From NCBI GenBank assembly GCA_030145325.1, contig JAQYVW010000021.1, forward strand, positions 1 to 40,927: DNA of 40,927 nucleotides, read 5' to 3'. A program made the position numbers and the translations under genes. The notes below the pieces were generated by a model, which did not search any database, was not told where the DNA came from, and saw only the letters and a list, made by a program, of their open reading frames with translations. Positions 2,558-3,533 of the stretch are shown in pieces. This stretch comes from Desulfurivibrionaceae bacterium (GTDB lineage Bacteria; Desulfobacterota; Desulfobulbia; Desulfobulbales; UBA5123). Within the stretch, counting starts at the first letter, position 1. Each line of letters starts with the position of its first letter.

Positions 2558-2902
2558 ATGCAGATTCACTGGGCTTATCTTCGTAATGGCTGAACCTCTT
2601 GTCGGAAGGCTCAGGAGGTTCTTGAGCGCGCGCAGGTAACTGTTGCTGAGGTGGTTGACGCTCGTAAGGTGCGGATTGATGCGGCGTCCGCATGGTGTTT
2701 ACTGAAAAATGTTTCCAAAATAACCGTGGCCAAGGGGCAGAAATTTATGGACTTAGCGCCGCAACTGGATAAGAAAGAGGATATTCTTAAGAAGGTAATG
2801 GGACCCAGCGGTAATCTTCGCGCTCCGGCCTTTTTGATTGGCGATGGATTTGTCATTGGTTTCAATGCTGATTTATACGAAAAATTATTTAAAGAAAAAT
2901 AA
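2558..2902 (+). CDS. ArsC/Spx-like selenoprotein with Sec-Thr-Ser-Cys redox motif
   Basis: The frame opens at ATG 2558 behind a strong AGGGAGGAG site (2545-2553), reads MQIHWAYLRNG, meets TGA at codon 12 (2591-2593), and continues in the same frame to TAA at 2900-2902, giving 114 residues. The TGA and codon 15 (Cys) form U-T-S-C, the position of the CxxC/CxxS redox pair in arsenate-reductase-like thioredoxin-fold proteins. The C-terminal part (GPSGNLRAPAFLIGDG…VGFN-like) resembles the ArsC family (seleno)proteins of anaerobic bacteria. A perfect 7-bp hairpin begins at the second base of the TGA. The cytochrome lipoprotein gene starts 22 bases downstream, so the two are probably co-transcribed. 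A conventional gene caller would report only the part after the TGA. Function is likely thiol/selenol redox; the substrate is unknown. Confidence 0.88.
2591..2621 (+). promoter_or_regulatory. Candidate bacterial SECIS hairpin
   Basis: GAACCTC (2592-2598, overlapping the UGA) pairs perfectly with GAGGTTC (2615-2621), enclosing a 16-base apical region with G and GU-rich 5' side. Bacterial SECIS elements sit inside the coding region just 3' of the UGA and are bound by SelB. Position and stem fit; the apical loop has not been tested against a covariance model. Confidence 0.7.
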
Positions 2903-2924: not shown

Positions 2925-3533
2925 ATGAAGATGAAATACCTGCTGGTAGTCGTATTGGTCGGAGTTTTATGTGTTGGTTGTGGTCAGGATGAAAACAAGT
3001 CGAGCAAGGTTGGGAAAAGCTCTCCTGTGGTTGACCAACAAGATCAGGAGCAGATGTTTACCCAGGAAACCATGGACAAGATTAACAAGGTTGCTAAGCC
3101 CATGCTGGTCAAGGCCGAAAAAGCTACCGGCGAGGTTGCCGCTCAGGTGGCCGTGCAGGCAGAGCAGGCCCGGCAGCGGACCGCGGAATTTACTGCCGCT
3201 TTACAGGAAGAATCTGCTCCGGTAATGAAGAAAACCGGCTCTGCTCTGATTGTTGCCGGAGAAAAGGTTCAGCAGGTGGCCGAGGTAATGGGCGCCGCCA
3301 AGACGGTGGTGATCAAAAACAAGAAAGGGAAGATCGTTTTGCCCCATCGCCAGCATGGTAAATCATTTGGTTGTAGCGCTTGCCATGGCGACAAAAAACC
3401 GGGACCGATGAAACTTGGTAAGGATAAGGCCCATAAGCTCTGCAAGGGTTGTCATAAACTGAAGGGTAAGGGGCCCAGTAACTGTTCCGGCTGTCATGAG
3501 AAGAAAAAGGCGGCTGCCGTTGAGGGGTGCTGA
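2925..3533 (+). CDS. Triheme c-type cytochrome lipoprotein (cytochrome c7-like)
   Basis: Predicted membrane-anchored periplasmic electron carrier of 202 residues. Residues 1-19 form a lipoprotein signal (KYLLVVVLVGVLCVGC, probable lipidated Cys19). Residues 25-135 are an Ala/Gln/Glu-rich, probably helical spacer. The C-terminal domain has three CxxCH heme motifs, C150SACH, C173KGCH and C187SGCH, with extra His (HRQH before the first motif, H upstream of the second) as likely sixth ligands, as in class III/c7 cytochromes. Start ATG 2925 follows AGGGTGG (2911-2917). It lies 22 bases after the selenoprotein gene, suggesting a redox pair, which is inference. Confidence 0.88.
   Translation: MKMKYLLVVVLVGVLCVGCGQDENKSSKVGKSSPVVDQQDQEQMFTQETMDKINKVAKPMLVKAEKATGEVAAQVAVQAEQARQRTAEFTAALQEESAPVMKKTGSALIVAGEKVQQVAEVMGAAKTVVIKNKKGKIVLPHRQHGKSFGCSACHGDKKPGPMKLGKDKAHKLCKGCHKLKGKGPSNCSGCHEKKKAAAVEGC

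Follow-up and report, generated by a model that had tools for sequence, protein, structure and literature searches.

An ArsC-related gene of family NF041106 in a Desulfurivibrionaceae bacterium is predicted to read UGA codon 12 as selenocysteine

The window analysed here, a stretch of 40,927 nucleotides (40.9 kb), carries on its forward strand a predicted ArsC-like selenoprotein gene of family NF041106 (2558-2902), assigned by translation and profile match. A Shine-Dalgarno sequence, GGAGGAG (2547-2553, + strand), lies 4 nt upstream of the ATG, and purine-rich stretches of a similar kind precede the ATG in most relatives. From the ATG (2558), 11 codons lead to an in-frame TGA (2591-2593, + strand), which is followed by 102 sense codons and a TAA (2900-2902). 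With U in place of TGA, the readthrough product has 114 residues, with Sec at position 12, and begins MQIHWAYLRNG-U-TSC. The coordinates, Shine-Dalgarno sequence and codon counts of the original prediction all agreed with the sequence and its translation.

Codon 12 specifies the first residue of a U-T-S-C redox motif, as identified by codon comparison across the family, and the Cys15 codon (TGT, 2600-2602, + strand), an invariant column in 34 sequences, specifies the putative resolving residue of this UxxC motif. The TGA had been correctly placed three residues before a Cys, but that Cys had been described as occupying the redox position, whereas the UGA takes the N-terminal, nucleophilic position and the Cys the resolving one. 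On both strands of the window, this is the sole TGA that combines an upstream in-frame ATG, a downstream stretch of at least 80 open codons and a Cys at +3, and it is also preceded by a Shine-Dalgarno sequence. Under the standard code, the same frame yields only an 83-aa ORF that starts at a GTG (2651-2902). Therefore, an ordinary gene caller would miss the active site, as had been anticipated, although curated family models (NF041106) do detect the protein.

A small lipoprotein-like gene (2925-3533, + strand) lies 22 nt past the selenoprotein gene and encodes three CxxCH haem motifs (residues 150, 173 and 187); its product had no match in Pfam. It is followed by a DsrE-like gene and then by a fatty-acid-hydroxylase-like gene, and the same downstream arrangement was found in one congeneric genome (L057). 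Across 27 loci, no partner gene was conserved beyond the genus. Judged by eye, the recurrent genes closest to the selenoprotein gene were a YifB-like ATPase (five loci) and a KAPA-synthase-like gene (three loci), and both look lineage-specific. Because the neighbours differ outside the genus, linkage is weak evidence of function and singles out no substrate. The divergent neighbour (745-2433, - strand) combines a C-terminal Beta-lactamase2 domain (PF13354) with a long N-terminal part that has no Pfam match. A plasmid search with the selenoprotein sequence returned no match.

Against NCBIfam NF041106 (ArsC_rel_Se_1, "ArsC family (seleno)protein"), whose cut-off is 85 bits, the product scored 123.2 bits, with a match covering positions 1-107 of the 107-position profile, which supports the ArsC family (seleno)protein identity that had been proposed from the sequence. 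All 34 aligned relatives matched the same model. Among 146 genomes, comprising the organism's own genome and relatives from its order, a member was present in 84, and nearly all copies contained exactly one TGA. Additional members were taken from Desulfuromonas, Malonomonas, Geopsychrobacter, Zixibacteria and Anaerolineales records. In a Geopsychrobacter MAG copy (L053:3001-3318), codon 20 is a second in-frame stop and a one-residue gap follows soon after, possibly reflecting a frameshift or an assembly error.

An AlphaFold2 model based on 34 sequences had a mean pLDDT of 93.4. Profile and fold comparisons with the PDB both ranked Spx chains first, followed by ArsC-like and glutaredoxin chains. 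The top Foldseek matches, 6gho and 1z3e, had E-values of about 1e-4 and TM-scores of 0.50-0.55; as these scores are moderate, the predicted Spx/ArsC-like (thioredoxin-like) fold is assigned on general architecture. Sec12 immediately precedes helix 1 and Cys15 is invariant, an arrangement like that of thioredoxin-fold CxxC enzymes. Ala89-Pro90 (2822-2827, + strand) belong to an invariant L-R-A-P motif that aligns to the Spx "LRRP" and in which Pro90 is presumed to be the cis-Pro. Within the invariant R88-A89-P90, Ala89 thus occupies the place of the Spx Arg that precedes the cis-Pro. Because the Arg adjoining the cis-Pro is lost, the protein should not be presumed to reduce arsenate or to regulate as Spx does.

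The resemblance to Spx/MgsR proteins (TIGR01617; PDB 1z3e, 3l78 and 6ghb) in architecture and in the position of CxxC/UxxC, with Spx chains giving the best profile and Foldseek matches, raises the idea that the protein regulates as Spx does, by binding RNA polymerase, with UxxC serving as a redox switch. We consider this unlikely: the protein reaches only 20.3 bits against the NCBIfam Spx/MgsR (TIGR01617) cut-off of 75.05, identity is about 17-20%, and Ala replaces the second Arg of "LRRP". Moreover, Sec usually resides at catalytic sites, which does not favour a regulatory switch. Still less probable is a true arsenate reductase (ArsC) in which Sec replaces the catalytic Cys, a reading encouraged by the broad fold class that the protein has in common with E. 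coli-type ArsC and by the names "ArsC-like" and "arsenate reductase-like" in the literature. The match to Pfam ArsC (PF03960) is 14.1 bits against a gathering cut-off of 24. In E. coli-type ArsC, the Arg preceding the cis-Pro is part of the arsenate-binding set, and the invariant Ala of R-A-P here contrasts with the x-R-P of that enzyme and the R-P Arg found in Spx and the ArsC-like chain 2m46. Additionally, the UxxC motif better suits a dithiol-type redox protein, and no ars gene is present among the Pfam-identified neighbours in the window. A stand-alone selenol-thiol oxidoreductase is the role that we regard as most likely.

The codon comparison bears directly on whether the UGA is translated. 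Among 61 distinct sequences, which include Zixibacteria and Anaerolineales MAGs, codon 12 was TGA in 56, TGT in four and TGC in one, with nothing else observed. Homologues with neither Cys nor Sec at position 12, which the original prediction had named as evidence that would count against it, were therefore absent from this set. Conserved residues flank the UGA, with M.IDWAYLRKG before it and TSC.KAQE after it; W5, R9 and C15 are invariant in the 34 aligned sequences, and identity along the frame is 41-67%. This conservation of the protein on both sides of codon 12 indicates that translation through the UGA is required. It was also considered at the outset that translation might start only after the TGA, and the conserved M.IDWAYLRKG argues strongly against such a start. 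The 83-aa GTG ORF does exist, and it could in principle represent the functional protein, with the UGA as a true stop and the internal GTG (2651) as the start. However, the residues upstream of this GTG, including W5, R9 and C15, are conserved across the order, and according to the predicted structure the truncated protein would be deprived of the first strand and first helix, which makes this reading very improbable.

We sought selA, selB, tRNA-Sec and selD in the genome by family searches. SelA (626 bits), SelB (382 bits), SelD (337 bits) and tRNA-Sec (74.9 bits) were all detected in the same genome, and ARAGORN identified the tRNA as tRNA-SeC with anticodon TCA. The look-up of selA, selB, selC and selD that had been suggested therefore yielded a complete set. 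The genome's selD (L010:1402-2550, - strand) carries an in-frame TGA within RTCGUAAK, and SelD is very probably a selenoprotein itself; this in-frame TGA makes it very probable that Sec decoding in the organism extends to at least one further gene.

A SECIS apical hairpin (2609-2627, + strand), recognised by covariation, begins 15 nt past the UGA codon and consists of an 8-bp stem (2609-2616 with 2620-2627) closed by a GGT loop (2617-2619). In 30 family members, which were picked mainly for the same hairpin register and thus favour this hairpin somewhat, 90.8% of cells were paired and 15 cells were changed on both sides, compared with a shuffle mean of 2.6. None of 500 shuffles matched this covariation, and every slid version was far worse. 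A synonymous-codon null, independent of the choice of the 30 rows, was run on all 61 genes. The G-loop hairpin score of the 56 UGA genes averaged 15.7 versus 7.1 for synonymous recoding, with 44/56 at p<=0.05, while minimum free energy alone discriminated weakly, placing 11/56 at that level. An Rfam scan of 2450-2950 gave only chance matches to eukaryotic families, far below gathering scores, and left the hairpin unmatched.

The original prediction had proposed a different element, a 7-bp stem beginning at the TGA (2592-2598 with 2615-2621, + strand). This stem is present and perfect here, but its covariation across the 30 family members was no better than that of shuffles, and it is not supported as the SECIS. 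Since it pairs without covariation and is mutually exclusive with the covarying hairpin at 2609-2627, it is probably the wrong stem.

Several relatives (L026, L029, L024, L025, L036 and others) use a second register, in which the hairpin lies one codon nearer the UGA and has a GGC loop. In this group, the loop is at +23 to +25, versus +26 to +28 in the first register (T of TGA = 0), and the residue following AQ is mostly Ala. The occurrence of the SECIS in two registers one codon apart, by lineage, would be a smaller novelty.

That an ancestral Cys codon (TGC or TGT) simply mutated to TGA in a pseudogene, or was misread in sequencing, has almost no probability left: TGA is one base from both TGT and TGC, which a few relatives do have, but it is conserved across the order in 56/61 distinct genes, nearly all of which have no other internal stop and keep the frame at the identity given above, compensatory changes maintain the hairpin at 2609-2627, and the genome holds the Sec decoding machinery. 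Instead, the codon pattern, the machinery and the hairpin point to an NF041106-family gene that very probably reads UGA codon 12 as selenocysteine. SelB, together with tRNA-Sec, would decode this codon, and the hairpin just downstream, with its GGU loop, would aid Sec decoding; we thus infer that Sec is incorporated in the cell. In the redox mechanism that we envisage, Sec12 would act as the attacking nucleophile and Cys15 as the resolving residue.

Five relatives of genus g16 (L022, L032, L038, L079 and L091) have Cys at position 12 and a decayed SECIS hairpin. The G-loop hairpin score of the Cys genes averaged 4.2 against a null of 6.3, with 0/5 at p<=0.05. All five Cys-bearing g16 genomes contain a tRNA-Sec above the cut-off, and four contain a full SelB, with partial SelB matches only in the fifth (G104). 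The view of these Cys variants as a mark of lost Sec decoding is ruled out by the tRNA-Sec in 5/5 and the intact SelB in 4/5; the Sec/Cys exchange is thus not a consequence of lost Sec decoding. We tentatively suggest that this is a Sec-dependent Spx-fold protein in which some g16 members have replaced Sec with Cys, with decoding kept and the SECIS decayed, although we hold this scenario to be doubtful rather than probable.

Related proteins have been reported previously. An ArsC-like selenoprotein in Desulfotalea psychrophila and a "distant ArsC homolog" in Desulfuromonas acetoxidans were described in 2006 (PMC1794560); likened by description, these Sec-containing, ArsC-like proteins of related anaerobes probably belong to the same family as the present gene or to a close one. 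A list from 2022 includes an arsenate reductase-like UxxC selenoprotein (PMC9312934), and a 2026 review lists the family as NF041106, with UxxC, and describes the biochemical role of such proteins as largely uncharacterised (PMC13188914). A literature search on Desulfuromonas and arsenate reductase found nothing. Compared with NF041106, to which the present protein matches at full length, with Sec first in UxxC and Cys homologues existing within the family, nothing substantive differs apart from the genus-specific neighbourhood. The gene is an added member of an already named and catalogued family, and represents neither a new family nor a new function.

Taken together, these results indicate that reading the raw sequence can correctly pick out a UGA-recoded gene. 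For the family, they add a SECIS backed by covariation and, within one order, a comparison of Sec with Cys. If the proposed exchange in g16 is true, the family would allow a clean test, set up by nature, of the advantage of Sec over Cys in this fold.
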